Source: Owenia fusiformis
Lineage: Eukaryota > Annelida > Polychaeta > Sabellida > Oweniidae
Assembly (NCBI GenBank): GCA_903813345.2
Contig: CAIIXF020000001.1
Location: 14,897,915-14,961,914 of the forward strand
Length of the DNA: 64,000 nt
Direction of reading: 5' to 3'
Under the pieces are notes generated by a model, which ran no database searches, was not told the DNA's origin, and saw nothing but the letters and a program-made list of their open reading frames with translations. Numbering within the stretch: position 1 is the stretch's first letter; the number at the start of each line of letters is the position of its first letter. Shown here in pieces: positions 14,001 through 63,928 of this stretch. Both the position numbers and the translations under genes were made by a program.

Positions 14001-17000
14001 AACCACCAAACATCAACCATTGAAAACCAAACACTGAACACCACCTACATAAATTGACACAAAGAAGCATGAACTAGCTAATATTTAACAAATGATCTTT
14101 TGCTGTTTAAGTGTAAAATAAAAATACTCTCATATCTATTTCTAAAAACTAGATTTTAAATGACTATGAGACATTCATTTGACAAAATGTGCGACAACTG
14201 GTTCAGGCAAAAATGGTGATGGTCACAAAAATGGTGGCTAATATAGGGGAAGTCGTCCTATCAGCGCACGGTTACTCAGGGAAACTAGTGAGCATTTCTT
14301 CTAAAATTTAAGTAGTGTTTGATATTTCTCAATCTCCGAACGCTAACACTTTAAGACCCCTTAGACTCACATGTGGGGTGGTCCTAATTATCGCACAGTC
14401 GTCCTAATTATCGCACAGTTGTGTTTCAGATGTCATTTCACGATACTGTATACATTTCTCTGTTTATAACAGATACACACATATGCTATAATGATTTTTC
14501 TATCGGTTTTAGTGTAAAATATCAACAAAATATCCATTATACACTTTCTTTTCTGTCTTTATTTGGAGGGGGTCAAACTTTGTCAGACGAATTTCACTTC
14601 TTGCGCAATAGCATTTATGACAATAGCGGAAGTAAACAATTCTTAAAAAAGAAGAGATATTTCTAAATATATGAATAAATCATGAAGATTGGGAGTAATT
14701 GTGTTGAACTGTTTTTCGTAACACTGGTTTAAGAGACGGTGGGTGCATATTTTAGCTATTTACACAGATCCGGAGCCAGATCCAGCCCCTATTGGTACTA
14801 GGCTCAAAGGATTTATAATTATTAGTATATTTATTGAGCCTAGACACAGAGGAGGTAATCTAGCAGAGGTCCGTGGCTATTTAGGACAATCATGTGATAA
14901 TTAGGACCGTGCGATAATTAGGACCATTTCCCCTATGTAATTGTTACCATGTTTTTCTTCTAGAAAAGGATACAATAAGCCACCTAATATTGACTAGTTC
15001 TGCTATTTGCTGTGAAACAGAAGTGTTAAACTGTGATGCTACATTCGAATGAGCTAAAGAGATGGCAGACTGTACAGATAGACCAGATGTTGAGGAAGTG
15101 TGCATGTCACTATGTATGGGCGACCCTGAACTGTCATTGAATTGCACTAACATACACCTCTCTATCAGCAGGCTCAACCTGAAATAAAACATACAGGTAA
15201 ATATGACACTTATATAGTATGCATGTACAATATACACCTTCTCTACGTCAATAGCCTTGTTTCAGCTTATTATTCTTTAGTTATAAAAGGCACTCATATG
15301 GTGAGTCTGTATACTGCAGAAAATGTGATTCCTCCAAAACGGACTAAAGTGAGAGACATGACCAGTTGTGTAAACCACTTAAAGTGGATATGGACAGCCA
15401 GACAGATGAGTAGGTGATTCCATAGGACAATGTGAGAGTCACAAACCATGGAGTTTTCAAAAATGTTGCCATTCATGCCATTCTGCAGTTCTGTAATTAG
15501 AAGGTACTAACTCCTCAACTGAGAATTGAACTTACAGGTAGGAAACATTTCCTGAATGGTGCGGGAGAGGAGTTTCAGACAGTGTTTGTTTGTATGTGTT
15601 AGATCATAGTTACTACTTTACTAGATGTGCTGATTTTTGTATTTTTTGTAATATTCTTTAGTCTTTCCCCTTTGAGCACTTGTGGTGATAGATTCATTTA
15701 TTCGAGAGAATTTCTATTTTCAGAATCTTATTTCCTTTTTAATTATGATTATTACCATACCTTCCTGTTTGTCCGCTTTGTAACACTATACTCTTCATGT
15801 CATAGAAGATAATCACTTCCTCACTGGTAGCATTCGTAAGGGAGACAAACAGGTTACATCGCCTGGAACTAAATGGAAGAAGGAAATAGATTTTTGTTAA
15901 TAATTTGTTATTCACGATACTCAACTTATGTAATACTTTGTGAACATTCAACACTATAAGGTCAAATAATATAAATGCAAAACATATTTCATTTTCTCTG
16001 AACAAACTAAACAAGGCATTAGCATACAAAATGTCACTACCTGCCATTTGTTACAGAACACCAACCACCAAACACTGTCCACAAAAATATTGGAGACTAT
16101 ATAATATGTCACCACTTCTAATGGCGACATAAAAACGAATCGAATAATAAATAAAATAAAATTACTTTCTTTCATAAAAGAAAGAATATTTTGAATTTAC
16201 ATTAATAATGTTGACAGTTTGTTACCTGTGTGGTGTGACATGGCATTCCTTTACAATAAGACATGGCTTGATCTCAATGTTGATAGAGACGGCACACTGC
16301 CTGCAGTAGCCTTCTACCATCCCCTCTCCCCCACTGTATTTGAACTGTAGCAGACCTTCATAGTTCTGAAACACAAGTTCACTTCAGTTGAGAATATCCT
16401 AATATTTTAAGTCAATGCATGGCCTCAATGGAAATCATGTAATTTACAGCACTACACACAACCGTTTGTCATTTATAGGTGTTTTTTGCACTATAACTAC
16501 TTAAAGCCATCTAACGTGGGCTGAAGATTTTCTCTTCTTTATTATTTGTTGTATACTAATATTGTATATTATTGTGTATTATTATTTGTTTTTCGGAATT
16601 TCAAGGTCGGAATTTTTATAAGGGCAGGTACATTGGTATCTCTGATATCAATATTTAATTGATAAATAATCATTTATTGATTTTGGGTATGACCACTCAC
16701 ATATCAGAATTCCTAGATTGAATGAACCAATGTTAATTTATGCCAATATACTACATTGCCAGACATTTTGAATCTAGATAACATTACATCATAGTTAAAG
16801 TCTATACATGTAAATATGCATACAGGGTGTCCAATAAATAAGGTGAAAGATATTGTAACTTTCCTAATATTGCACCAATCTTGATGAAATTTTCAAACCC
16901 ATTCTTGCCCATTTCCTGAAGTCTCGCTAAGACATGTGATCTGAGTTCATCAGTGCTTCCAAATTTATTTCCTCTCAAGTCACGCTTGAGTTCTGCATAT

Positions 17001-20000
17001 AAGTAAAACTCATTGGGTGCAAGTTCTGGGGAATATGGAGGGTGTGCAAGTAGGGGAAGCCCCAGTGCCCTAATAGTTTCACTAGTGAGCATAGCTGTGT
17101 GTGAACCCAGATCACATGTCTTAGCAAGGAAATAGGCAGGAAGTGGGCAAAAATTGGTTTGAAAGTGTGTTTAGAGAGTGGGTGAATAGGCATAAGAGTG
17201 TATAGCTAGAGATGGATATTATGTTGAATAGCTTATTTTCATAACAATGGGACTTTAGGACTGTTTTTATATTGTATTTGTGGTAGTAATAGACCTGGGA
17301 GTACGAATAAAGCTATCAGAAAGAATAATAAATATGTTTTGGTAAGTTGTGACGTAAACAAACTTGCCCCGCCTTTTTGTTGTATCGGTTGCTATAGCAA
17401 CCACAACTCTGGCCAATCAAATAGAAGATGCTTTAAATTCACAGAATAAAGGTAAAAAGGTTTGGGCTACAAACCCTGAAAATTTCATCAAGATTAGTGC
17501 AACATTAAGAAAGTTACAATATCTTTCACCTTATTTATTGGACACCCTGTATGTAGTGCATGCATTTCTATAACAAAGTTACCAAAACAATTTCCTCACC
17601 ATAGTTTTGTTCTGGTCTGCTGCATTATTATGTGATACTACAGGTTGGTCTGAAAAATGAGAAACTCTCTTAATGAAAAAACATAGCATCCATTACATTT
17701 TACGCAAGGCTCTTCACAACTATGTTAATTTTAAATGTATCAATTTAATGAAAACAATAACATATAAACAAACATTTATTTGAAATATTTTAATGAATTT
17801 CTTCAATATCAAACAGTAAAGAGAGAGTGTTTCTATGTTGAAGAACTACCTACTTTGTATAAATTGTTTCTGCCCAATGTCAACATGCATATTATGCAGA
17901 CCATGCATGTACACAGTGAATGCTGCTTGGTTATCTTTCTCTATGGGCAATTGTGACTGCAAATTCTCATGGTTCCATACTAGCACCTTATCTAAACTAT
18001 CTGAAATGAAGTGACAATATTCTTTAGATTTATCTTTTACAATCGAATATACATTTAAGGGTCAAAGCAAACATTTGTCATAACTGTATAGTCATTGAGA
18101 AATCATTTTGAGATGAAAACCACTTTAGGTTAAAATGAAACCAATTTACATAGTCTTGTATTAAGTTCAAAACCGTTCCAATCTCGGAAGAGGATAACAA
18201 GGAGCTGGGGACTGGCCAGAGACTAATGCAATTGACCATATTCAAGAGTAAAATAAATAAAAAAGTTTTCAATGTTTTTGGTTTTTAGTGCAATTGGTTT
18301 TTGTTCCTTTTTACCAATTCTTGAGAATGAAATAAAATATCTTTCCGAAGCTTGCTGGAACAAAATTAAGAAATATAGACTGAAGGGCAGGGGTAATATT
18401 GTTGAATACACCCCACAGGGCTAGGCACAAACGTTTTCTGTACCCTGAATGACCGAAGGGAGTGAGGGGTTCGAAAGCTTTTGTGCCTAGCCCTAAGGGG
18501 TGTATTCGACAATATTACACCTGCTATTGAGGTTTATATTACGATTCGAACATGAAAACTCACCAAAATGTTTTGAATATTCATTACATTCTGCCATTAC
18601 TACGGCATGCCGTTATGATGTCACACATTACACATATTACCAGGGGTATTCTTCACGAATATACCCCGGGTGAAATGTTGACTTTGTTAACAGTTTATAG
18701 AAGACGTGAATACAGTCATGTTTGCATTTGCGAGGATTTTGTATCAAAAATCTAAATTTGCGCAAAATCTGCGAAGAGAGCATTCAAGAAGCTAATAAAA
18801 TATTTTGTTTTTGCAATTTTATGCATTTTGCGATAGACTTGCTAACCTTTACTGCAAGATGATTCTAAATGTAAGTCCACACTCTCCACTGTCTCATTCC
18901 CAACATTCTTCAATGTGATTTGGCACTCTTTACTAAAACATAAATCAAATAAATACATGTTAATTATCAATGACAAAAGTTGAGTTGCAAAAATATGGTG
19001 GCTGTAATTTGTTAGCTTCTTTGATGAAAACATTCTAATTTGTGTACTACATTGTGATTGTGTTTCACACCAATATGGCACAATCTTCATATTATTATAT
19101 AAGTTCCATGTTGATAATTGTGTAAATTATGGCAATTATATTGTGTATCATCAATAACAATATGAAGTACATCCTTACAGCTAAACTATTGATAACATCA
19201 AAATCACAATATTGATGTTATACAGATCTTGGGAACAAGAACACATCAAATTAAACTCAATTATCATTAAGTCTTACGTGTTATGTTTTATTCAGTTGAG
19301 TTATCTATGAAAAAGAGTGTACTTTCCAAAAAGATAATGCATACCTCTCTCCCATATACAGTACAACACTTGTACTTGATACTATATTGGCTGATCCCCT
19401 ACAACTACTGAAACTACCAGACTTTGGTAGAGATGACATGACTTGTACACGAGGGAGAGGTGGAATGATGTTGATGTTGTAATAGGGATATTTAAGATGT
19501 GAAAGACTTCTGAGTCGGCAGTTACTTTTCACACCAAACACATGTGTGGTGTAGCCTAAAAGAAGAATTAAAATTCAATATGTATGAAGGGTATTGTACT
19601 TATTTGCGTAATTTTTGACTATTTTAAATAATCAGTTACCTAAATATAACACCTTCCTCGGTACATCATTTCAGAGCACCTTTAGCCAATTTTGTAAAAA
19701 TTTGCCACAAACATATGTATTGTATTGTATTGTAAAATCACAAACATTTGCCATCAACATTTTGAAATGGAGCTATTTTAAAACTACGTAAAATTTTACA
19801 TGTTAGTTATAAATTCATTATACATAGACATGAGACATACCAACAAGTTTTAACTCTCCATTCTCTCTAGGTGTCCCTAGTATTTTCACAGGGTAGGGAC
19901 CACTCTCAGGGGGTAAGGTCATGCTGGCAGGAAAACATTCAAATGCTACTACATCAGTCATTAAACCCTATAAAACATAGAAACCATGAAGTAAACTCCA

Positions 20001-23000: not shown

Positions 23001-26000
23001 AGTACTGTATCTCTGAATCTACATGAATATAAAAAGAAGAATCATTTTCCTGATTTTTTAACAGTTAAGATCATATTTGTTTACTTGGAAAATGTACCAA
23101 TTATTATAGGTATGTGTAAAATATGAAAATATACGCAGGCACTCTAGAATCACTTTTCTCATATTAAGTCAATGTTATTTCTCTCAAAGCAACGCATAGT
23201 CAATAGTCATTGAATTCTTTCACATTATCTGTTAACATGAAATATAAAGTATGGGGGTAAATTATGGAGTTCACTACCGTTAGTTAAGATGGGGGGGGGG
23301 GGGTGATTTTACCTTTTCCTCATCTGACTGTTGGATGTTGATGTAAACAACATTCTGAAGGAAATCAGATGCTTCTAGATATTTCTGAAAATAAATGTCA
23401 AATTAAAGCAATTCAGAAAACATAAAGTACAATATTTGAACATATTCACTGGAACACAGTCAATAAGAACTGTAAAACAAAACAGTTAATTTTGAATGTG
23501 ACAAAGTAGATTTTTGAACTTTTTTTTAAAAATATTGTTATATAAATATTTCTGATTAAAGAATTGTGTGTAGCAATAATTTCTAACTTAAAAACATTTA
23601 GTTTCCATTTTCCTAAATTGCTATATAATATGTTACATACCAACTGTAAGATGAGCACCCTGCAAGCTTTTATACTGGCCTCCATCTCAATAATACCAGC
23701 TTGCTTGATCTGAAATGAAGAAAAAAAGATAATACAAAAATGACCATTTATGTATGTTTTCATGGTGAATTGAATGTTTTATTCCAGCTGCTGTGGAGTT
23801 GTATGCCGAGTACTAGTGAGAGGGCTAAAGTTATCAAACACAAGGGATATGTCATAGTTGTCAAAATTAGGAAATAAATACTTTTCATAAAAATTTCAGA
23901 CAAAGACAAATTTTGGGCAAAGGGTGCAATTAAATGTGATTTACATCTTTTCGCAATGTAACTCCCACAGATCATGTGAATCCATTTAAAATCAAAGATT
24001 TTTGCATTCATATTTTGACAAGAACTAGGATAAGATGGGTTTTTGAATCCAGTTGAGAAGTGGAGGAAAGAACAGTGTGGTTTCTTACCTTACTGTAGTG
24101 GACAATGGCCTCTTTGTATTTGTCTATGATATCATCAGGCATGAGACAGTTCTTGGTTTTAGCATTGAAGCTGTCCAAACCATTTTGGGACTGGAGTGGG
24201 TTGGAACTTCTAGCTCTTATTGAACCTGGAGAGAATCATATACAAGCACAGTAAGATTAAAGTCATTTTGTTAAAGATAATGCTGATGCTTTGATGAGGT
24301 AAACTGAATTGAAACATACTGCTGTGTGCATATGATCCCTTAAGCTGTTTTCAGAATTTTGTTTTATTATGGCATTTTTATTGGAAATATAATTTACTGA
24401 TTTATGTGTATGTTAAACATAATGGGCTTCATGATTATCAATTGATGTTGGAGAATCATTCATTAGATTAAACTGGACATTATCATACATGAATTGCTTC
24501 ACAAGTCTCATTGAAAAAAATTCTTGGAAATACAAAAATGTCTTACTAGTATTATTGAGCATGTCTTACCTGGTGAAAATGTTGCTTTTTGCATTGCTGA
24601 TATACCACGTCTGGTTGAGAAAGACAAATTGCGGGAAAAGGATGTTGGACGTTCTGTTCTGGGGTAGTTCACAATAACAGAGGCTGCACAAAGACCTTCA
24701 TATGCAGCTAGAAACAGAACAAAATGTCATATAAACCTTTAAATACTTTCCGTTAATATTCATTAAATTTCATCTTAGATAAACAAGTTAGGTGCATCTA
24801 CTGAAAAATAAATATGGGCTATTCCAGCAATTTTAAGCAAGAATATGGGAGACAACATTCGAATTTTATATAAACATAATACTAGAAGCAATAGCATAGT
24901 TTCGTATAAACAGACTAGAGTGAAAGTTCTATCCAAATGTTCATCATTTTTTGTCATTAACTCAAAATCATATCAATTCATCTCATCCAGTTGACCATCT
25001 CATCTCATTTCCTAAAATTGCAAGGATTTGTTTAAAATGTTTAATAAACAAAATATCCTGTACTAGTATATGTATGCTCATTGATAGCAACCTACCTGCA
25101 AGCCAGAGGGAGTCATTGACAGAGCGCAGAGAGTCTAGACATGTCTGATAGTGAAGAACAGCCTCAGCTGGGAGCCCTGCCAGGAGACATAGGTCACCGA
25201 GGTACTTCCTTAAACGCCCTTGGCATTTCTTCCTGTAGGACCTAGAATTGGAAATCAGTTATACAAGAACAGTTAACAGTGTATTTGCACTTCATATTCA
25301 GAATAATATGACAAAGAATCAAAACATCTAATATGTATCACTTAATAAAGCATGTTTAAAAGGGATGTAGTTAATATAAACATGAATACTACTATACCTG
25401 CTTTCTGTATCAATACCAACAAACTCCCTTCTCTCATAAGGTGCTGCAAGTAGTGGCATTCTCTCCAACTTCTCAGCAGATCGATCAAGCCTTTTGCTTT
25501 CAAGCACCCAGAATAAGGAAGATGCAAAATCTCGTATTTTGGCTTCAATATCAGAGCAGTCATCTACATGTGCATAGAACCAAACTTGTGTTTTTGAATT
25601 GATGCTACCACTTCCACTTGATGACCCTGTTGAGCTCCTTGACCTATCACCTGACCCTGAGTCTCCTTGACCTTGATCAGGGTCATCTTGATTTTCCAAA
25701 GTGTCAAGGTCATCAGATGAATCAGATTTTCCTAATTGACTGAGTGGATGAGAAGTCACTTCCAAACGATCACTAGACACCTGTTTTTTATCATTCTTGT
25801 CATCAGTTGTAAAGTTTGAGTTTTCATTGATAATATCACTATCTGAATAACTTGTTTTAACATTTTCAGTAGTTTTTTGAAAACCATTGTCATTGGTTTC
25901 AGTAGATATATTGCCACTGCTGTTGCTGACTGTTGATAAAGACCTTGGTTTAACTTCTAAATTCTCGTTTTCATTCTTGGGTAGAGCTTTTCCATCTTTT

Positions 26001-26365
26001 CCAAGACCAAATACCATGAGACGATGGTCAAACAATGTAGATTCATACTGCTTCTGAGTTCTATCATACATTGTGTACAAATATTCAAGTTCAGATTCAG
26101 AAGTACAATAGCCAACACAAATCAAGCCTAGAACTTTCCTATGGGCTTGAAAATCCCCCCAATCATTGTTATCTGGTGGGTATGCTTTCTTATAACGTAG
26201 CCATATGTTTCGAGCTTGTTCTTGAATTCTGACATGTTGTACTCTAGAGATGCGCTCATAGACTTTATTGAATGATCGTGATTTTAATTGTGTCCCAATA
26301 TGTTTAACAAGAACTAAGAGGTTCTGGTGATCTTCCACTTTCTGACTGTAATCTGGAAAACTCAT
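11022..26365 (-). CDS. TRAPPC9: TRAPPC9 (NIBP/Trs120), TRAPPII tethering subunit
   Basis: Trs120-family subunit of the TRAPPII complex, which acts in Golgi/endosome tethering and Rab activation. Twenty-four exons chain in phase to 1,267 aa: 25398-26365, 25096-25241, 24570-24707, 24089-24225, 23641-23709, 23313-23384, 22820-23018, 22307-22400, 21683-21771, 21298-21385, 20715-20875, 20316-20401, 19841-19967, 19345-19555, 18847-18932, 17854-18000, 17600-17649, 16226-16365, 15761-15868, 14974-15178, 13039-13132, 12566-12664, 11801-11922, 11022-11189. The start MSFPDYSQ matches the vertebrate N-terminus and follows a TTTTAG acceptor, so a 5'UTR intron precedes it. Family blocks seen include [47 protein letters not shown] and [12 protein letters not shown]. 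Oddities: a Ser/Asp/Gly-rich insert (about residues 150-260) in exon 1, and a Cys-rich exon 23. The donors of exons 16 and 20 are the least certain because phase decided between alternatives. Confidence 0.95.
12057..12342 (-). pseudogene. Duplicate of the TRAPPC9 terminal exon inside its intron 22
   Basis: These 286 bp appear identical, without gaps, to 10846-11131 at an offset of 1,211 bp. The source encodes the last 36 residues or so of TRAPPC9, the stop codon and the first part of the 3'UTR. The copy lies in the intron before exon 23, same orientation, without the splice acceptor or the poly(A) signal at 10771, so it should not be translated in the normal mRNA. The complete identity suggests a very recent event or an assembly artefact. 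Confidence 0.9.
12343..12530. repeat. Local tandem repeat
   Basis: Near-identical units of about 105 bp carrying GATATATAGAGGTTCAGAC and GTAAATTGGTTTGAATTG recur at about 12370 and 12473, with a more degenerate copy at about 11980-12060. The array abuts the duplicated terminal-exon copy on both sides, which suggests the duplication landed in this repeat. Confidence 0.7.
13343..13896. repeat. Dispersed repeat family A, copy 2 (empty site)
   Basis: Colinear with 6921-8211 but without the 0.73-kb nested insertion. It lies in the TRAPPC9 intron between exons 20 and 21. The overlapping 98-codon open frame (13699-13995) runs across the repeat edge and is not a gene. Confidence 0.8.
13941..14050 (-). 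repeat. GTGGTGACAT-type dispersed repeat, copy
   Basis: Shares AAGGCATTAACATGCAAA, ATGTCACCACCTGCCAT and GTTACAGACGCTGAACACC with copies near 16.0, 22.1, 27.6, 32 and 35 kb. It lies in a TRAPPC9 intron. Confidence 0.7.
14246..14933. mobile_element. TIR element with TA target duplication (688 bp)
   Basis: The ends are GGGGAAGTCGTCCTATCAGC and the imperfect complement, with ATAATTAGGACCATTTCCCC at the right end. Both sides carry TA. Near each end and internally the word CCTAATTATCGCAC is repeated. It has no intact transposase; the open frame at 14421-14666 has no recognisable similarity. It sits between TRAPPC9 exons 20 and 21. Confidence 0.75.
16008..16131 (-). repeat. GTGGTGACAT-type dispersed repeat, copy
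   Basis: Contains ACAAGGCATTAGCATACAAA and TGTCACTACCTGCCATTTG, followed by ACACCAACCACCAAACACTG and a right end ATATGTCACCACTTC. It lies between TRAPPC9 exons 18 and 19. Confidence 0.7.
16823..17549 (-). mobile_element. Mariner-derived element with transposase remnant
   Basis: Terminal inverted repeats of about 75-80 bp start CAGGGTGTCCAATAAATAAG and are flanked by TA, the mariner/Tc1 target duplication. Inside, the minus strand (about 16850-17092) encodes a mariner-type transposase C-terminus with [16 protein letters not shown] and LKRDLRG. The usual last catalytic Asp region (PSD) reads PNE. Only this fragment remains, so the copy is non-autonomous. It lies in the TRAPPC9 intron between exons 17 and 18. 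Confidence 0.88.
18404..18745. repeat. Dispersed repeat family B, copy 1
   Basis: Shares GTGCCTAGCCC, GGGGTGTATTCGA, ATTACGATTCGAACATGAAA and GAATACAGT..ATGTT with 42705-42985. The left part is an inverted repeat: GAATACACCCC..GGGCTAGGCACAAA pairs with GTGCCTAGCCC..GGGGTGTATTC. It lies in the TRAPPC9 intron between exons 15 and 16. The 67-codon frame at 18552-18755 is repeat-derived. Confidence 0.78.
22108..22276 (-). repeat. GTGGTGACAT-type dispersed repeat, most complete short copy
   Basis: Bounded by TTGGTGATGACAT on the left and GTGGTGATGACAT on the right, with internal ACAAGGCATTAACATGCAA and CCAACCACCGAACACCAAC. It is in the TRAPPC9 intron between exons 8 and 9. Confidence 0.72.
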
Positions 26366-26699
26366 TGTGACCCTAAAAAGAACAAATATACATTTTACAA
26401 TAGAAACCAAACATATGATATAACATTTAATAAAAGTCTTAATTTTTTATACATGTATGAATTCAACTCTGGTGATCGATATTACCCAACTGCTCTTACG
26501 GTCTAAAAAGTCTACATGTAAATATTAGCTTTGGTACAAAAACATAACATAGTCCATTTCAATAGGGTTGTGACATCAACAAAACCTAAAAAAAAAAGCA
26601 ATCAAAAGACCAATTTGCAATATTATATAAAAATTAGTGGTCAGACTCGCCTGAAAATCTCCAATCGAGTGGGCCATGAAAAACCATGATTATATTCGC

Positions 26700-38277: not shown

Positions 38278-41200
38278 CTAGAGGTGAATAAAAGAGTGAA
38301 TCAACACAATAACAGAGGAGATCAAAAACGAAGATGCAGCAATTGTAGAAGCACTGCTGCAGTAGTCTTTCCACCAAAGGTTCCTGAGGCGGGAGAGGGT
38401 CCCGTCTTCCTGCATTCGTAGAATAGCAAGATTAAACGTTGATACGTGGGGAGAACCTTTCGAGAAAGCCAGTCCGTACCCCCACGAATTAAGTGGATTA
38501 CCTATAACTTTGACATCGCATGGTCGATGTTTTGACCAGTAGTCCGCCATGACGCTGTCCATGATAAAATAATAATTGCCTTGTCTCACTCGATCTACTC
38601 CCGTCGCTGCTTTATCAACAAACACAGATGGGTCCGAATTCATTTTGGCCCACATGCGTGCATAGAGACCATAGGTTGAATTTTGGAAAAACTGTTTCGT
38701 CAGACCATTTTGTATCGTGCCATATTTTGCCGTGTTTTGATTAGCGAGTTCCCCCACACTCTTGATTTCGAGAGGATTCTTGCCCAAGATGACAGTTCCA
38801 GTAGTCATGAAGGGCAAGGTGAAGTCCAAGACGTTCAGACGCGTCGATGTGATCGTCAGTGGCGCAGCTGCAAAGTCAGCGTCCTAGAATCGAAGCACAA
38901 TGATGTAATTTCATTAATTCAATTTCCAATTACCTCATTTTGCTTAATTATTGCACAAGCTGTTTGCTGTAATTGTTTAATCTTAGCACCCAAGTTCCGT
39001 TCTTGCAAAATTACTTGTAGTAGACAAAGATGGATTCTAACAATTAGAACTAATTAAGTGATCCGACATGCCGGGGGGAATGGGCGAATGGTTCATATCA
39101 CTACACCATTCTAGGTATCCACGAGGCAGATGTAATGTGTGGTTTCATATAGAACACGGTTATTTAACATAAATACGTTACTTACATTATAAATATTATT
39201 ATTGAATGATTTGAAGTGCATTACAGGATATATTCTGCTCTCGATATTCTGTATTGGCACTCGAAAAAAAGTGTTACAAATATATTGATAATTTCAGAAT
39301 ATACAGTTGGTGCTTGGCTTTAATGCCTTACTTTCATGTAATCATCTTTTTTGAACTAACATGAGAACCATTCATTAAAGTAAAACCCGAAGAGAATTGG
39401 AATATTTTGCTTCATATAATTATTGATTTACATGTATATCCCATTGTATTGTGATATTGAGAAGCATCAGTGCCAGAGCGCATATTCTTTGACAAATACC
39501 ACAGAGATATGTTCGACTAAAACTAAATCTTGATAGCCGAGAGCATGCAATGAGTACGAACGTGGTGTGATTATCAAATTAATATAATATATAAGTAAAC
39601 CGAATACTGGATAATGGAGTGAGAATTTTGGTAACAGGAGTCAACGGCCATGGGCAACGAATGTCGTGGCAATGTCTGCTTCTGCAACTATATATATACG
39701 TGTGACTCCAAGATGGCCCCGAGTATTCTCCAAAGACTTTTTCATCCATTCCTGAGACATTAAGTCATCAAGTGGAACCAAACAGTTGCCAAAGAACATT
39801 TTCACTGTTCCACAACTAGTTACTTTGACGGAACGCCAATGTAACAAAATGGATGAACTTCCTGGTTACGAGTTCTTTTGTTTTCTCGATTTAAACCTAC
39901 TTATAAGTCCAGTTGCAGATTGTAATTTGGCACAAAGCGAGAAAATATACAGTTGTCTAGCTTTAATGAATTTCTTCAATTTGGAATTTGTTTGTAAATG
40001 AAGTTGCAATTCTTATATTAGTCCCTCGCTTTTGTTACATTGACGAAAGTCCGTTATATTACCAATGTATGTTACTTTGCCGACTTACGTCAGTGTAACA
40101 AAAACGATGGTCTAAATGCATGAATTACAGCTTTATTTAAAAATCTGATTCCAAACCGAGAGCACTTCTTAAAGCTAGACTATATTTTCTAACTTTGTGC
40201 CAAATGATAATCTGCAACTTGACTTATAATTAGGTTTAAATCGAGAAAACAAAAAACTCGTATCCAAGAAGTTCGTCCATTTTGTTACATTGACGTTCCG
40301 TCAAAGTAACTAGTTGTGGGACAGTAATTTTGAGAAAAAAACTCGGGACACAATTTTAGGTCACTTTACATCTTACCGGTCCCAAGACTTCGCCGATCAT
40401 CCCGGTCCACTTGCCATCACTTTTAGGAACCCCATAGGCGCCATCCTTAACGATAGATATATCAAAATTGATCCCTAGGCGATCTTTTAGTTCATCAAGC
40501 AGATCGGGAATAAAACCAGTATAGCGACCATTAACCAGTTGTTTTTCAACGAATGGCGGCTCCTGAAATATACCCATCCAACAATCTGATAAGAACGCCC
40601 TATTGTATATAAATTGAATGATTATCTTTCAAAAACGGCAATGGCTGCAACACTTGAAGCTTTCCGACAATAGAAAGAAAGCACTTTATCTAAAGAATTC
40701 ATTTTGGCCTGTCTTGATTGCACATTCTGAATAAGAGAATAAAAGAGAATCAGACTTGCAAATATTATGATTTACATCTGGTAGTCTTATATCTATACCC
40801 TGGACCTTGGAGTAAATAACAGAGGGGGGGGGGGGGCAGAGTCTTGAAACAAGACCAATTTGGTAGTTATCGTATAGTTAAATTAAACTCACATGAATTG
40901 TTGTCACTTTGAGTGTCTTTGATGTAACTGGAGTACATACTGCAAACAAAATAGAATTAACAATGATTGATTCTGTTATTCATTGTCTTGTTGCCAAGGA
41001 GATATACGTAAATATCCTAATAAACAAACAGTCCACCTGAGCTGGGCCATCATTTACTTTTAATTGGAAAAAGATTATATGTAGCTCATCCCACATTTCA
41101 GAGAAAAACTAGATAGATGCATATCCGAGAATTTGGAATTTGTATCAGTTTGATATCCGATGTGTTTGTGGAAACAGCCATTCGCCTTGGAAGAAAATAC

Positions 41201-44200
41201 TGTAAAATGTTGACAGGCGTGGAATATGTATACCCTACGAAAATGCTCCACGCGAATCCAGCCCCTGTTTGGGTTTGATTTAAAAAAGTCAGTTGTGTTT
41301 GATACCCTGTGTCCCTGTCTAATTGAAACAAATCTTCCGTATCACCCTGTACCCTCCGATGGGATTGCCAAACATTCGATTTTCTTTAACTCCCAGGATT
41401 GACTCGAATTCGACGTTGCTATGAATATGAAATATATCAAACTGTAACAATATTCCGACAAAAACACATATTTCTTCGCTCCATGATAGGTTTTAATACA
41501 CAAATGGGAATATCACGTCATCAATAAATCAAATTGCAGAACAGAACAGCATTTTGAATTTTGACGACGCTAATCAAATAAACAGATACTATTATTAGGT
41601 TTCATTACTATTTGTAATATCTTTTTTGTTGGAAATATATTTATGGTATCATATTAATAATGATCAAGGGGGAGAGTACGAGTATAATCCGTTTGTATTT
41701 TATCAGCAGCTCTAAAAAGAGATCGATGAAGAAATTTCAACTAAACTCCCTTAAGCGAATATTAGGCCAACTCGTCATTCTTGGTTGAATTATTAATTTA
41801 AGCATTATAGGCCTATAAATACGTATACTTCTCAAAGCCACTTTAATTCAAAGACGATTTTTTCAGGATCTTATTTAAGATCTAAGCCATATTGGCTGCC
41901 GCAATAAAGACATTTTGTTGACACCGGGTGATTAGTCCCAAATTAAGAAAATTTTGAAAGTTTAAACATGTACTCTAAATTGCAGTCTTTTACTGTAAAA
42001 CTGTTAAACACTTTAAAACTGTAAAACTGTTAAAAAGTCATTTTTATTTTTAATAGTAGCCTAATCAGTGTTAAAAATCATGTCATGAATATAAGGAAAT
42101 ACAAGAACTGATCGACAATTTCCAATATAGCCTAATTATTATTGGATAAAAATTTGAGATAAAACAGGTTATTACAACCTAATTCTTCTTTTTAGTATTA
42201 AAAGATACGCATCTCGGAAATTTTGAATGCGATTACTCCATTTCCAAGTCATTAATTCCGTCATTGAATAATCTTCCATCAGTGTACGATAAATAAATTG
42301 GCCATAGCGTTCCGGACGAACAAGATAATCACCCAGTTCGTGATATGGAAACGCCATGGAAAATTTCAACAAGTTGATCAAAATACATAACATCAACTTA
42401 TGATTTTCTCATAAAAGATATGGAAATATATTGAATTGATGTGTTACATGTGTTAATGTATTTTGAGTTCGGAAATTCCCAATTGGTCGAGCATTACACA
42501 CATAATCGCTTTAACTGAAACATTGGCAGACGCCAGAGGTGCTTTCAGAGGTCCACGATCATTGTTTATTCATACCGCAATTCCAATTATAAACCAGGCC
42601 CTCCAATTATGGAGTCCTTCTGGAATTTGGTAGTCTATGGGTTCACGATCTATATAATCGTCTCATATCACGATACGTTTTGTCTCAACATTCAGTAATT
42701 AAGAAATAGAGCAAAGCTTTCGAACCCCTCACTCCCTTCGGTCGTTCGAGGTACAGAAAACATTTGTGCCTAGCCCCACGGGGTGTATTCGATGATATTA
42801 CACCTGCCCTGAGGTCTATATTACGATTCGAACATGAAAACTACGGGCGAAAACTACATTACTACGGGCCGCCGTCACACATTACTCGTTGTACCAGGGG
42901 TATTATTCGCGAATATAACCCGGGCGAAATATTGACTTTGTTCACTATTTATAGAAGGCGTGAATACAGTAATGTTAGAATATCTTATAGTAAATACCAT
43001 AACGTTGATAATATACGACATGCAAGCAGGTAAATTCAATTGCCTTATTTTTACGACGTTAATTTCATAAATGGTTTTAGTTAAATGATCACATAAAATA
43101 CATTGTCAAACAAAACATGTTTTATTTGATTTTTAATGTGCAAATAATCTATTTTTAATATCAGATGAACAATCAGATGGAAAATCAAACATGAAAAAGT
43201 AAGTACAAGACATGCTTATCTTTGAAAGGAAGCCACAAAATGAGATTCGATATTTTCTAGGGCATCATTATAACGAAGGAATATATCAGTTTTGTTCATA
43301 ATACTTACACACCGTTTTTGGAACTAATCCAATTAACAACTCTGGGGTTTTCAACCTAATATATTAAAAGTAAAGCTAAATATTCATTTTGTCAATAATA
43401 AAATCGACAGAAATCAACATCTTCTTAGGATGAGTTGAACTAAGTAGTTGGTATTAATATATAGATAAATAAAAATAAATCATACACGCAATGTAAAAAT
43501 ATCAAGGGGTGACAAAATCATATAGGCGAACCCAACTCTTTAAATCGAGGAGTTACCATGAAATAAAAATCGGTGAATTTTAACTTACCTTGCAAGAACA
43601 TCAGAAATCCTACAACTTGTGATGCCAATGTTTGCATGTCGTGTCCAATCATTCTAAGACGACCAGTGCATGGATTGACCCTCTCAATGTATGCTCTCAC
43701 ACCGACACGATTGATGCAAGTGGTTTCTCGGACCCGCTGCAATTTGATTATTAAGTCGCTGTACAAAGAGAACTTTCTTTTTAATAATATCACATGGGAT
43801 TCCAGTGCTTCTTGATTGGTTCCTATCGCGAGAACAATTGGATTAACCAATCATGTTCCCAATGACGAGAGGATAATATTGTCCCCCAGCAGAATATTCC
43901 AATTCTGAGTAAATTGAGGTCACATAACATGGTTCAAAATGACGTTATTTGCACTTTGGTGATTTATAACAGAGCCAAACGCAATTACTTTACAATATAT
44001 AATCACTAGCAATTCCCATTTATTTTTGGTGGGACAATAAATTGAATTTATTATCGTGTAACAGACAACTTATTTAAGTTTTAATCATACCATAAATGCA
44101 TTTTATTGTTCTATATATCACCGATAATAGTTTCCGTCCTTTCGCGCTTCCAACCCAGTCCTCCATCGACACGTCTACTTCGCCAACGTTGTCTCCATGA

Positions 44201-59208: not shown

Positions 59209-59587
59209 TAGATATCGAGAGATACCATGATACGCATGCATAAAGAAATAAAACAATATAAATATATGGCTCGCACTTAGTCGACAGTTTAAGAACTCTC
59301 TCAGAACATATCTGCCGATTGCATCATGATATCTATCTGTATGAGATAGGGCATATACATTATCACTAATAGATACACATTTAGTGCACGTGCAACCATA
59401 TCCCATCCTATCCTCAAATTCACTGATATCCCAAAAGCATGTAAAGTACACCGCGATGTAGCCTGTATTGATAGAACTCAAACAAATGATAAGATAGCAG
59501 AAGATAACCATAACCGACGTATCTGTCCAAATGATGAGCAAGTGAAATTAGTCCATCATAGTTTATTAGCCCATCAGGTTCACAAAA

Positions 59588-62500
59588 ATGTTGACGTTGG
59601 TTTTGGTAGCGTCTCTGCTGGCGTTAGTAAATGGTCATGGACGGATGATCAACCCTGCTGCAAGAAACTGCATGTGGCGTTATGGGTTCAAGAATCCTGC
59701 CAACTATGACGATACTGCACTCTACTGTGGAGGCCTTCAAGTAAGCGTACCATATGGTGAACCTGAAGTTCGATCAGTTAGGTTCAGCTTATGTTCTGGG
59801 TTTCAGATGCTTGGATATATAAAGTATTTGAAGTATGTTATTTAGTGGAAAGAATGAATTATTTTCCGACACATCTGTAGTTATTGTAATACAGGGATTG
59901 GGAAAATTCAAAAATAAACTTAGATTCCTAAGGTTTGAAACGTAGCAATAACTACAACAAATAATTCTCCCGTTTTAGGACTGAAATAATATGGAGGTTA
60001 AGCTTGACGTGTTAAGAGAACTTGAACGTGAACTTGTACAATTAAGGACTTCTAGGGATTAGCTCTTCCCTTGGTTGTAATTACCTGCGGCGACCTTGCG
60101 GTCTATCATTTCTGCGGCCAGTAACATTTCTACGCTCGCCGTGGAATTTCTGCGCTCTCATACTTTTGCAGTCACATTTCCCACGGCAGCCGCATGGTGA
60201 ATTTTAAATTTCTGTTGATAAATAATACTTTTTTCATTTTATTTACATCGGGACAACTTATAAATGTTATTCATAGTGCTAGGATGTAATATCAAATGAA
60301 AAGTGATCGTTAAACATTGACAAATAATGATTTAATCTTGTTGAGCCAGTTGATTTCTCCGGCGACCTCAGAAATGAACAAAAATTATAACTCCGAGTTA
60401 TAATTTCTACGCCTTCCCTGCGGCCTGTAAAAATCTGCATACGCCGTACGGAGGCCGCAAGGCGAGCGTAGTTTTTCTACGCTCACCGCAGATATTCACC
60501 GATTTAATTGATCTGCGGTCGACTTGCGGCCGCCGTGCGACACTTGCGGCCTCCGTACGGTGTATGCAGATTTTTACAGGCCGCAGGGAAGGCGTAGAAA
60601 TTATAACTCGGAGTTATAATTTTTGTTCATTTTTGAGGTCGCCGTAGAAATCAACTGGCTCAACAAGATTGAATCATTATTTGTCAATGTTTCACGATCA
60701 CTTTTCATTTGATATTACATCCTAGCACTATGAATAACATTTATAAGTTGTCCCGATGTAAATAAAATGAAAAAAAGTATTATTTATCAACAGAAATTTA
60801 AAATTCACCGTGCGGCTGCCGTGGGAAATGTGACTGCAAAAGTATGAGAGCGCAGAAATTCCACGGCGAGCGTAGAAATGTTACTGGCCGCAGAAATGAT
60901 AGACCGCAAGGTCGCCGTAGGAAATGTGACTGGGGAGTTAGATTATGATCTGAAATATATGGGATTTATTTGAATTTGTTTATGACTGGTCAGGCCCATG
61001 TGCATACTTTGTTTTGTAATACTTTTTTCCTTCCACGTATCATTCTGAATAATCTGCCATTTGACAGAGAAACCTTAGATGCGTCACTGTTTGACTAATT
61101 GGTTGACTTCATTTGAACAGACTAAACTCTAGTTATAAAATCTCCTAATATCTGGTTCTATGATATCTGTTATCTCACGAACATGAATTGGTGATACATC
61201 TGCAATAAATACTGATACGGCTATTCAATTTGTAGAACCAAGTCAAACAAGGAGGTAAATGTGGTACATGCGGCGACGCCTATCAAGGACCAAGACCACA
61301 CGAGGCCGGAGGAAAATATGCCAATGGTGTTATCGCTAAAACCTACAAACAGGGGCAGATTGCTGAAGTCACCGTCGAATTGACTGCAGGTCATATGGGA
61401 TGGATGGAATTCAGGTTTGTGTTGCGACCGGTGTATTAATGGTATTACAAATAGTTTGAAAAGGGGATGGGCGAACTAGGTAAATTGTGCTATTACTTGT
61501 TATTGTATCATTGTAGATTGTGCAAATGGGACAACCCAAAAGTCCCAGTGACACAGGAATGCCTAGACGAGAATGTCCTTCAGCTCGCCGATGGTTCAGG
61601 CACCAAGGTTCCAATTGATAACACAAAGAGGATGATCATTGCCAGGCTACAGCTTCCCAAAAACATCAACTGCAAACAATGTGTGGTGCAGTGGTTATAC
61701 CACGCAGGTAACCATTGAATATAAAGCACAATATGTGGTGCAGTGGTTATACCACGCAGGTAACCCTTGAATATAAAGCACAATATGTGGTGCAGTGGTT
61801 ATACCATGCAGGTAACCATTGAATATAAAGCACGATATGTGGTGCAGTGGTTATACCATGCAGGTAACCATTGAATATAGAGCACGATGTGTGATGCAGT
61901 GGTTATACCACGTAGGTAACCATTGAATATAAAGCACGATATGTGGTGCAGTGGTTATACCATGCAGGTAACCATTGAATATAGAGCACGATATGTGATG
62001 CAGTGGTTATACCACGTAGGTAACCATTGAATATAGAGCACAATATGTGATGCAGTGGTTATACCACGTAGGTAACCATTGAATATAAAGCACAATATGT
62101 GGTGCAGTGGTTATACCATGCAGGTAACTATTGAATATAAAGCACGATATGTGGTGCAGTGGTTATACCACGTAGGTAACCATTGAATATAGCGCACAAG
62201 GTGTGGTGCAGTGGTTATACCACGCAGGTAACCATTGAATATAGAGCACAAGGTGTGGTGCAGTGGTTATACCACGCAGGTAACCATTGAATATATTTAG
62301 CACAATATGTGGTGCAGTGGTTATACCACGCAGGTAACCATTAGATATAAAGCACAATATGTGGTGCAGTGGTTATACCACGTAGGTAACCATTGAATAT
62401 AGAGCACAATATGTGATGCAGTGGTTATACCACGTAGGTAACCATTGAATATAAAGCACAATATGTGGTGCAGTGGTTATACCATGCAGGTAACCATTGA

Positions 62501-63928
62501 ATATAAAGCACGATATGTGGTGCAGTGGTTATACCACGTAGGTAACCATTGAATATAGCGCACAAGGTGTGGTGCAGTGGTTATACCACGCAGGTAACCA
62601 TTGAATATAGAGCACAAGGTGTGGTGCAGTGGTTATACCACGCAGGTAACCATTGAATATATTTTGCACAATATGTGGTGCAGTGGTTATACCACGCAGG
62701 TAACCATTAGATATAAAGCACAATATGTGGTGCAGTGGTTATACCACGCAGGTAACCATTGAATATAAAGCACAATATGTGGTGCAGTGGTTATACCATG
62801 CAGGTAACCATCGAATATAAAGCACGATATGTGGTGCAGTGGTTATACCATGCTGGTAACCATCGAATATAAAAAGCACGATATGTGATGCAGTGGTTAT
62901 ACCATGCAGGTAACCATTGAATATAAAGCACGATATGTGGTGCAGTGGTTATACCATGCTGGTAACAATCGAATATAAAGCACAATATGTGGTGCAGTGG
63001 TTATACCATGCTGGTAACCATCGAAGATAAAGCACAATATGTGGTGCAGTGGTTATACCATGCTGGTAACCATCGAAGATAAAGCACAATATGTGGTGCA
63101 GTGGTTATACCACGCAGTTAACCATTGAATATAAAGCGCCGACATTGAGAGGTAAAGTCATATAAGCATACACAAAGCAGAGCAAGATCGTCACGTAAGA
63201 TTATTAAAAACATCGCGAATTCTTATTAACGGCATTAACGCCAATGAATACTTGCAGGCAATAGTTGGGGATGCGAGCCAAATGGTAAATGTTGCTCTGG
63301 ATGCGGTACACAAGAGGAGTTTAAGAACTGCGCTGATGTTGCAATTGAACCTTCTACTTTCACCCCAGCAACCCAGGTAATCATACAAGTATAAAATTGA
63401 CAAGGAAATGACTAAACGGGAATTGATAATTACTGTTTGGGTGTACTGTTATTAGATTCTCCATTTAATCCCAGTCCCAACCAAGTACATAAGCGAAATG
63501 TAGTGAAGCGAAATGTTTCCTTTGCATTATTCAAATAATTGGTTCTTTACATTGGATTTCTTCAGAAATTATGTGTCTAACATATATTTCCAGAGACCCC
63601 CTTCTACAAAAAGGACTTATGAACCACCAATGGAGACCACCCCATCTACTAGAGTACCATCAACAAGAGCACCTTCAACTAGAGCACCATCCACAAGAGC
63701 ACCTTCAACTAGAGCACCATCTACAAAAAGGACTTATGAACCACCAATGGAGACCACCCCAGCTACTAGAGTACCATCAACAAGAGCACCTTCAACTAGA
63801 GCACCATCCACAAGAGCACCTTCAACTAGAGCACCATCCACAAGAGCACCTTCAACTAGAGCACCATCTACAAGACCTCCAACAAGGCGTACCACACCTC
63901 CAACAAGGCGTACAACACAAGCCATAAG
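59588..63928 (+). CDS. AA15-type lytic polysaccharide monooxygenase with repeat stalk (3' end beyond window)
   Basis: Secreted copper enzyme that oxidatively cleaves chitin or cellulose. Exons 59588-59740, 61236-61414, 61517-61707, 63258-63376 and 63594-63928 chain in phase; the last ends in phase 2 at a donor (ATAAG|GTAAAT), so more exons lie outside. Residues 1-16 are a signal peptide (MLTLVLVASLLALVNG); the mature protein starts with His (HGRMINPAARN), the first ligand of the copper histidine brace. The second brace His is in LTAGHMGWMEFRLC. Other AA15 marks are CGTCGDAY, WLYHAGNSWGCEPNGKCC and many paired Cys. The catalytic part is about 214 aa. Exon 5 adds a Thr/Pro/Arg-rich stalk of PSTRA repeats. 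Intron 1 carries a large palindrome and intron 3 a minisatellite. Confidence 0.93.
60068..60935. mobile_element. Large near-perfect palindrome in LPMO intron 1
   Basis: Arms of roughly 380-400 bp (about 60084-60460 and 60548-60921) match in full inverted order around a loop of about 85 bp. Shared words include GCGACCTTGCGGTCTATCAT, CATCGGGACAACTTATAAAT and AATTATAACTCCGAGTTATA (or complements). Its right end reads AAATGTGACTGGGG; the left counterpart is more diverged. There is no coding capacity. It is a foldback-type DNA transposon or a recent inverted duplication of one. Confidence 0.9.
61682..63135 (+). repeat. 52-bp minisatellite made from the LPMO exon 3/intron 3 junction
   Basis: About 28 units, each with GTGGTGCAGTGGTTATACCA, CGCAG or close variants, then GTAACCATTGAATATA and AAAGCACAATA. 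The first unit's left half is the coding end of exon 3 (VVQWLYHAG) and its right half is the start of intron 3, so each unit repeats an exon end plus its 5' splice site. A higher-order repeat of about 366 bp (seven units) is seen at about 62163 and 62529. Minus-strand frames of 64 codons here are repeat artefacts. Confidence 0.93.
63640..63885 (+). repeat. Coding tandem repeat: PSTRA units of the LPMO stalk
   Basis: A 15-bp unit of the type CCATCAACAAGAGCA encodes PSTRA about a dozen times. It is interrupted by a second copy of a longer segment (KRTYEPPMETTP-S/A-TRVP), which shows a larger duplication of about 125 bp. The array is in frame with exon 5 of the LPMO. Confidence 0.92.

Follow-up and report, generated by a model that had tools for sequence, protein, structure and literature searches.

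Can the ligand-binding domain of an ionotropic glutamate receptor (iGluR) exist in an animal genome as a gene of its own, without the ion channel? The question is raised by a locus on the minus strand of a 64-kb stretch (here the window) of contig C1 (62,201,769 bases) in the Owenia fusiformis genome assembly, which comprises 498 Mb in 525 contigs. We find that this gene, called W here, encodes both lobes (S1 and S2) of the ligand-binding domain, joined within one exon with no membrane-channel segments between them, and that W and three paralogous loci (A, B and C) very probably make up a genuine family of binding proteins that derive from iGluRs but lack the channel. Four exons of W were located, with AG acceptors at all four and GT donors at the first three. 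Spliced together, they give residues 2-329 and the stop codon of a public protein, P0001 ("unnamed protein product [Owenia fusiformis]", 329 amino acids), letter for letter; roughly 100 bases past the stop codon there is a poly-A signal motif. A first-pass annotation had recognised the gene but gave its extent as 38278-40939, whereas it reaches upstream to at least 43736; it had also missed the signal-peptide-like exon, the tail resembling a glycosylphosphatidylinositol (GPI) signal, and the three paralogues of the same build. The features of W, in window coordinates and with residues in GluA2 numbering (used throughout), are as follows.

43589..43736, minus strand: upstream exon with in-frame ATGs at 43652 and 43637 and the signal-peptide-like MIGHDMQTLASQVVGFLMFLQ; identical to P0001 residues 2-50
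40893..40939, minus strand: exon coding CTPVTSKTLKVTTIH, the start of S1; placed by GT/AG borders and P0001 identity
40377..40562, minus strand: exon coding most of S1 (EPPFVEKQ...GMIGEVLGP); Pfam PF10613
38278..38883, minus strand: last exon, with the end of S1, linker, S2, C-terminal tail and stop; placed by alignment, splicing and S1S2 profile
38839..38862, minus strand: PLTITSTR, ligand clamp including P478, T480 and R485
38790-38779, 38778-38767 and from 38766, minus strand: the join, being ILGK (end of S1), the NPLE linker and S2, respectively; placed by alignment and splicing
38692..38709, minus strand: NGLTKQ, in which positions 653-655 are G, L and T (rule of PMC6307864)
38551..38565, minus strand: IMDSV, with the acidic clamp residue 705 (Asp)
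38281..38358, minus strand: C-terminal tail SSASTIAASSFLISSVIVLIHSFIHL, with small residues, a short spacer and a hydrophobic run to the stop; GPI-signal-like by hydropathy

A chance likeness of W to an iGluR binding domain is excluded by the Pfam Lig_chan-Glu_bd match (E 5.2e-31) and the closest PDB sequence match (E 3.5e-60). In the Pfam scan W matched PF10613 and PF00497 and matched neither PF00060 nor PF01094, and its last exon scored E 5.8e-74 against a home-made S1S2 profile of which the W protein is itself a part. The first-pass annotation's central claim, that S1 runs into S2 in one exon with the channel removed, is borne out: the open exon 38883-38278 reads ...LDFTLPFMTTGTVILGK-NPLE-IKSVGELANQN..., and alignment of P0001 with nine other receptors shows no first membrane segment (M1), pore loop or third segment (M3) between ILGK and IKSVGEL. 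A profile of M1-M3 made from eight of the nine found no match up to E 1 when run against the window translated in all six frames. Searches of the window by tblastn with P0002 and five receptors bearing an amino-terminal domain (ATD) found only the S1/S2 exons and chance-level matches, and no ATD exon; matches outside the W exons had E 0.74 or worse and included two of P0011, one of them running from M3 into S2 at 63540-63800. With P0001-P0007 as queries the scattered window matches outside the W exons had E 2 or more. We therefore reject the idea that the window hides a pore exon or an ATD exon, and a spliced-in pore exon, which the first-pass annotation had named as what would undo its claim, is unlikely. 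P0001 has about 57 residues ahead of S1 and no PF01094. The hydrophobic tail of W ends at the stop codon, and thus has no cytosolic sequence of the kind that follows the last membrane segment (M4) of channels. The fold prediction for W resembles S1S2 constructs and both S2 cysteines are present (by the PDB sequence match and the receptor alignment), in line with what had been proposed for its fold and disulphide. W is thus not an iGluR channel, for want of a pore, and should function as S1S2 does in AMPA/kainate receptors.

A search of the whole genome with P0001 gave 38 matches. Besides W, three of these continue from the end of S1 across S2 in one open frame, leaving no space for a pore.

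A (L061), C1:17582528-17583097: 41% identity to P0001, linker KKPSNGEID
B (L062), C3:17100386-17100949: 40% identity to P0001, linker KKPQNGQLQ
C, C1:1368980-1369627: 32% identity to P0001, linker KDSPQFKN, exceeding the matched query by about 31 residues

Searching with A (29 matches) again returned W, A, B and C as through-matches, and searching with P0073, a metagenomic protein described below (46 matches), returned W, A and B as through-matches and C in S2 only; neither search gave a fifth channel-less locus among the best candidates, the only ones scored. The Pfam S1 family PF10613 matched 44 exons in the genome. PF00060 matched at 31 places, none of them at the W, A, B or C loci, and the pore profile found nothing in 9.9 kb around each of A, B and C. 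As a measure of its sensitivity, the M1-M3 profile matched DNA at 17 of the 19 other named receptor loci, some weakly; the misses were C6_13.10, which has an M3-like stretch by eye, and C7_27.45-48, which has a PF00060 match at C7:27476127. Outside the 19, a diverged locus at C9:26.6 Mb gave a marginal M1-M3 profile match and has PF00060 at C9:26626107; locus L065 entered this profile scan only. GT/AG borders are present at the placeable exons of A and B. Separately, C7:27.45-27.58 Mb holds a cluster of several diverged receptor loci, three of which, where aligned, have Asp at 705.

Outside Owenia, a profile search of 5.8 billion proteins gave 268 matches, of which 120 were listed. Six of these 120 lack PF00060: P0001, P0019, P0021-P0023 and P0073. 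The last has 290 residues, is encoded on a 940-bp contig of a JGI metagenome, which we assume to carry the complete gene, and consists of a signal-like N-terminus (MTSAVLLLLSLVALATFAHA), S1, a linker and S2, ending in WWKQSGNSCN with no hydrophobic tail. No relatives of it were found in IMG/VR viral contigs. P0019, named as rat GluK2, looks like a crystallography construct and was set aside, and P0017 was rejected as a relative since it is a bacterial tandem solute-binding protein. P0021-P0023 were rejected as channel-less proteins because they have hydrophobic segments between S1 and S2; these short proteins (ena contigs of 9.5-19.6 kb) have S1, the hydrophobic segments and S2 in that order, and are possible pore-degenerate receptors like P0013.

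We think it fairly probable that W is a GPI-tethered extracellular S1S2 clamshell derived from a channel-forming receptor. Its signal sequence would direct the protein into the secretory path, its C-terminal tail would be swapped for a GPI anchor, and the domain would come to lie on the outer face of the plasma membrane with neither pore nor cytosolic part. There the AMPA/kainate-type clamshell would close round an amino acid, most likely glutamate, and its likeliest use would be to bind transmitter extracellularly as a sink, a local store, or a presenter or co-receptor for surface proteins. At least four channel-less Owenia genes would have arisen from channel-forming receptors by loss of the stretch coding for M1-M3. 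For the family as a whole, the best reading is of AMPA/kainate-derived amino-acid-binding proteins that are probably either GPI-tethered or secreted.

The termini bear directly on this. The upstream part of W holds a signal-peptide-like segment, MIGHDMQTLASQVVGFLMFLQVCTPVTS, and the signal-like stretch at residues 30-57 of P0001 is a putative cleavable signal peptide; in our judgement starts at the in-frame ATGs 43652 or 43637 would yield one of normal appearance. GPI signals consist of small omega residues, a spacer and a hydrophobic end with no cytosolic residues. By hydropathy, W, A and C have a hydrophobic stretch up to the last residue; the tail of W is laid out as CSSAS-TIAASS-FLISSVIVLIHSFIHL and that of A as ESTDGAAS-ISTSVSLLVSLILITANFI, and C ends in ENGAIFFNKLILLKTLFICILVTYIT, with a Lys within the hydrophobic part. 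A hydrophobic end that reaches the last residue was found in only two (P0066 and P0101) of 126 comparison proteins, some of them partial (the 135 fetched proteins minus P0001, P0003-P0007, P0017, P0019 and P0073). The tails of W, A and C fit the GPI layout, and that of W is a candidate GPI-anchor signal. Alternatively the tail of W could be what remains of M4, spanning the membrane once as a true helix, in which case W would be a truncated subunit that co-assembles with channel subunits and regulates them. A helix is indeed predicted at residues 304-328, and LBD (ligand-binding domain) dimer contacts exist in AMPA/kainate receptors. However, the tail of W ends at the stop with no cytosolic residues, whereas in the channel-forming relative at C8:19.9 Mb the linker is longer and is accompanied by an M4-like stretch and a basic tail. 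A weak argument is the loss of E486, presumably a dimer-interface residue, in all four Owenia channel-less proteins; of 16 Owenia channel rows 14 have E, one has L and one does not cover the position, and E stands in 17 of 18 other rows, but the L is that of the C8:19.9 Mb relative itself and P0073 keeps E. We regard this alternative as unlikely, though it survives better than any other.

Arg485 is present in all five channel-less proteins (W, A, B, C and P0073), as is an acid at 705, which is Asp in W and Glu in the other four, so that W has the amino-acid clamp of iGluR channels. At 653/655 the residues are G/T in W and P0073, G/V in A, G/L in B and G/M in C, the last placed with uncertainty owing to an insertion in C. 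Under the published rule, G/T indicates glutamate, and a non-polar 655 combined with Gly653 makes a glycine candidate (PMC6307864). W, A and P0073 share Thr at position 480, where B has Tyr and C has Leu. The ligand of W is thus most likely an amino acid, namely glutamate, to judge from Arg485, Asp705, Gly653 and Thr655. The earlier statement that the ligand-site residues are kept holds for the clamp, Arg485 and the acid at 705, and only in part for the rest: in W, 705 is Asp in place of Glu, 654 is Leu and 450 is Phe. A and B also carry His/Asp-rich runs ahead of S1 and past S2, which one might guess to bind metal. These runs, together with the non-polar 655 of A, B and C, are what favours a clamshell whose primary ligand is not an amino acid, that is, a chemosensory or metal-sensing domain; the alpha-amino-acid clamp kept in five of five proteins argues the other way, and we consider this improbable.

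How the family arose was approached with a tree of 39 sequences, four short rows (the NMDA locus, C11_33.174, C7_33.82 and P0007) having been dropped. W, A, B and C fall in one Owenia group with the channel loci C8_19.9, C11_24.7, C6_13.10 and C7_21.5 (support 87/98), within which A+B+C has support 91/90 and W pairs with C8_19.9, a node with no printed support value. The placement of P0073, with arthropod-like kainate receptors, has weak support (99.7/49, and less at the inner nodes). Approximately unbiased (AU) tests rejected neither monophyly of the four genes (p 0.38) nor of the four with P0073 (p 0.13), and we therefore claim no number of channel losses. C8_19.9 has the same intron as W before 'xADxAxAPLTIT', and two further introns, one in the pore region and one in S2, that are missing from W; as speculation, the joint loss of the pore and the downstream introns might stem from reinsertion of a partial cDNA into the gene. 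The C8:19.92 Mb locus (L064) itself has a degenerate pore motif, IGYTASLTRQF against SYTANLAAF, and Asp at 705. A and B are 48% identical and have both the join and the His-rich flanks in common, so that channel loss most likely came before their divergence. In an alignment of 237 codons their identity by codon position is 0.57, 0.68 and 0.35 (about 0.26 each when shuffled), and pN is 0.37 and pS 0.82 with dS saturated, which speaks for an old split followed by protein-level selection. That selection, the open frames, the splice borders of W and of the placeable exons of A and B, and the clamp residues kept in all make it very unlikely that these loci are decaying pseudogenes or functionless receptor fragments, despite their strong divergence and long branches. 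Least credible of all is that an assembly deletion or a skipped pore exon hides a normal channel in W: the join lies within an exon, no pore profile match was found in the 64 kb of the window or in 9.9 kb around each of A, B and C, and the four loci lie on two contigs, with P0073 from another source, and have different linkers, so the assembly deletion allowed for in the first-pass annotation is unlikely. In its favour, P0001 is listed on a contig of the same length as C1 and so stems from the same assembly as the window, which means that it does not confirm this join independently.

Several points nonetheless weigh against W as a GPI-tethered glutamate binder. P0001 must take its start Met from a further exon, which was not located, nor were exons for the signal peptides of A and B. 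The A, B and C proteins are absent from the seven matches of the search that gave P0001 and from the 120 of 268 profile matches listed. The GPI-signal-like tail is present in three of the four worm proteins (W, A and C) as judged by eye and hydropathy, and B ends in a His-rich run with no hydrophobic tail. Asp705, Leu654 and Phe450 may alter the affinity or the ligand of W, and the AU tests cannot tell one channel loss from several.

Among known systems, W is close to the AMPA/kainate receptors (GluA, GluK), with which it shares the S1/S2 lobes (38-46% identity over S1S2 to eight relatives), clamp residues, S2 cysteines and the intron before 'xADxAxAPLTIT'; unlike them it lacks M1, the pore loop, M3, and M4 with its cytosolic tail, and no ATD was found. 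The engineered S1S2 constructs (such as GluA2 S1S2J and GluK1 LBD) have the same arrangement, but W is natural, with its own linker, a signal-like N-terminus and a putative membrane-targeting tail. Vertebrate kainate-binding proteins or 'probable glutamate receptor' (such as P0002) are likewise short and LBD-dominated with no ATD, but keep M1-M3 and M4 (PF00060; P0002 sequence), which agrees with the first-pass view that W is not one of them. P0073 resembles W in its S1-S2 join, absent pore and kept clamp, and differs in having no hydrophobic tail. Bacterial family 3 solute-binding proteins belong to the same clamshell superfamily (PF00497), but the sequence, introns and chromosomal setting of W are those of an animal iGluR. 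W is not a chemosensory ionotropic receptor (IR) either: IRs are described as having lost glutamate-contact residues of the LBD and retained the channel (PMC2924276), and W kept the clamp and lost the channel.

Elsewhere in the window are an exon resembling TRAPPC9/Trs120 (25328-26446, minus strand; PF08626, E 2.7e-4, under the Pfam cut-off), a transposase-like DDE_3 fragment (16802-17170, minus strand; E 0.0012, under the cut-off), and at 59570-59845, plus strand, a signal-like start followed by HGRMINPAARNCMWRYGF, which we take to be typical of animal AA15 lytic polysaccharide monooxygenases; no Pfam match was found for this exon at E 0.01.

In the literature we searched, which excludes most subscription papers, no naturally occurring iGluR binding domain without its channel is described. 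Such genes may stay unseen because surveys can remove them: the iGluR survey PMC6307864 dropped any sequence that retained fewer than four of the conserved residues in the pore motif SYTANLAAF, and such a filter would discard a channel-less family. The clamshells described here point to a possible undescribed class of neurotransmitter-binding, non-channel proteins. Tentatively, and with appreciably less confidence than for W alone, animals may have a natural class of GPI-tethered or secreted iGluR clamshells that gate nothing, with at least four Owenia members of differing pockets, two with metal-binding His/Asp flanks, serving as metal/amino-acid sensors or transmitter sinks, and with a separate origin in another animal lineage, that of P0073.

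The evolution of iGluRs is usually told as the fusion of a clamshell and a pore into a channel. If our reading is true, this gene family undid that fusion and acquired a membrane tether while selection preserved the clamp, and animals use the iGluR clamshell for something besides gating. The W family would then give structural biologists a naturally occurring S1S2 protein, and would allow the existence of transmitter sinks or non-channel glutamate co-receptors to be tested.
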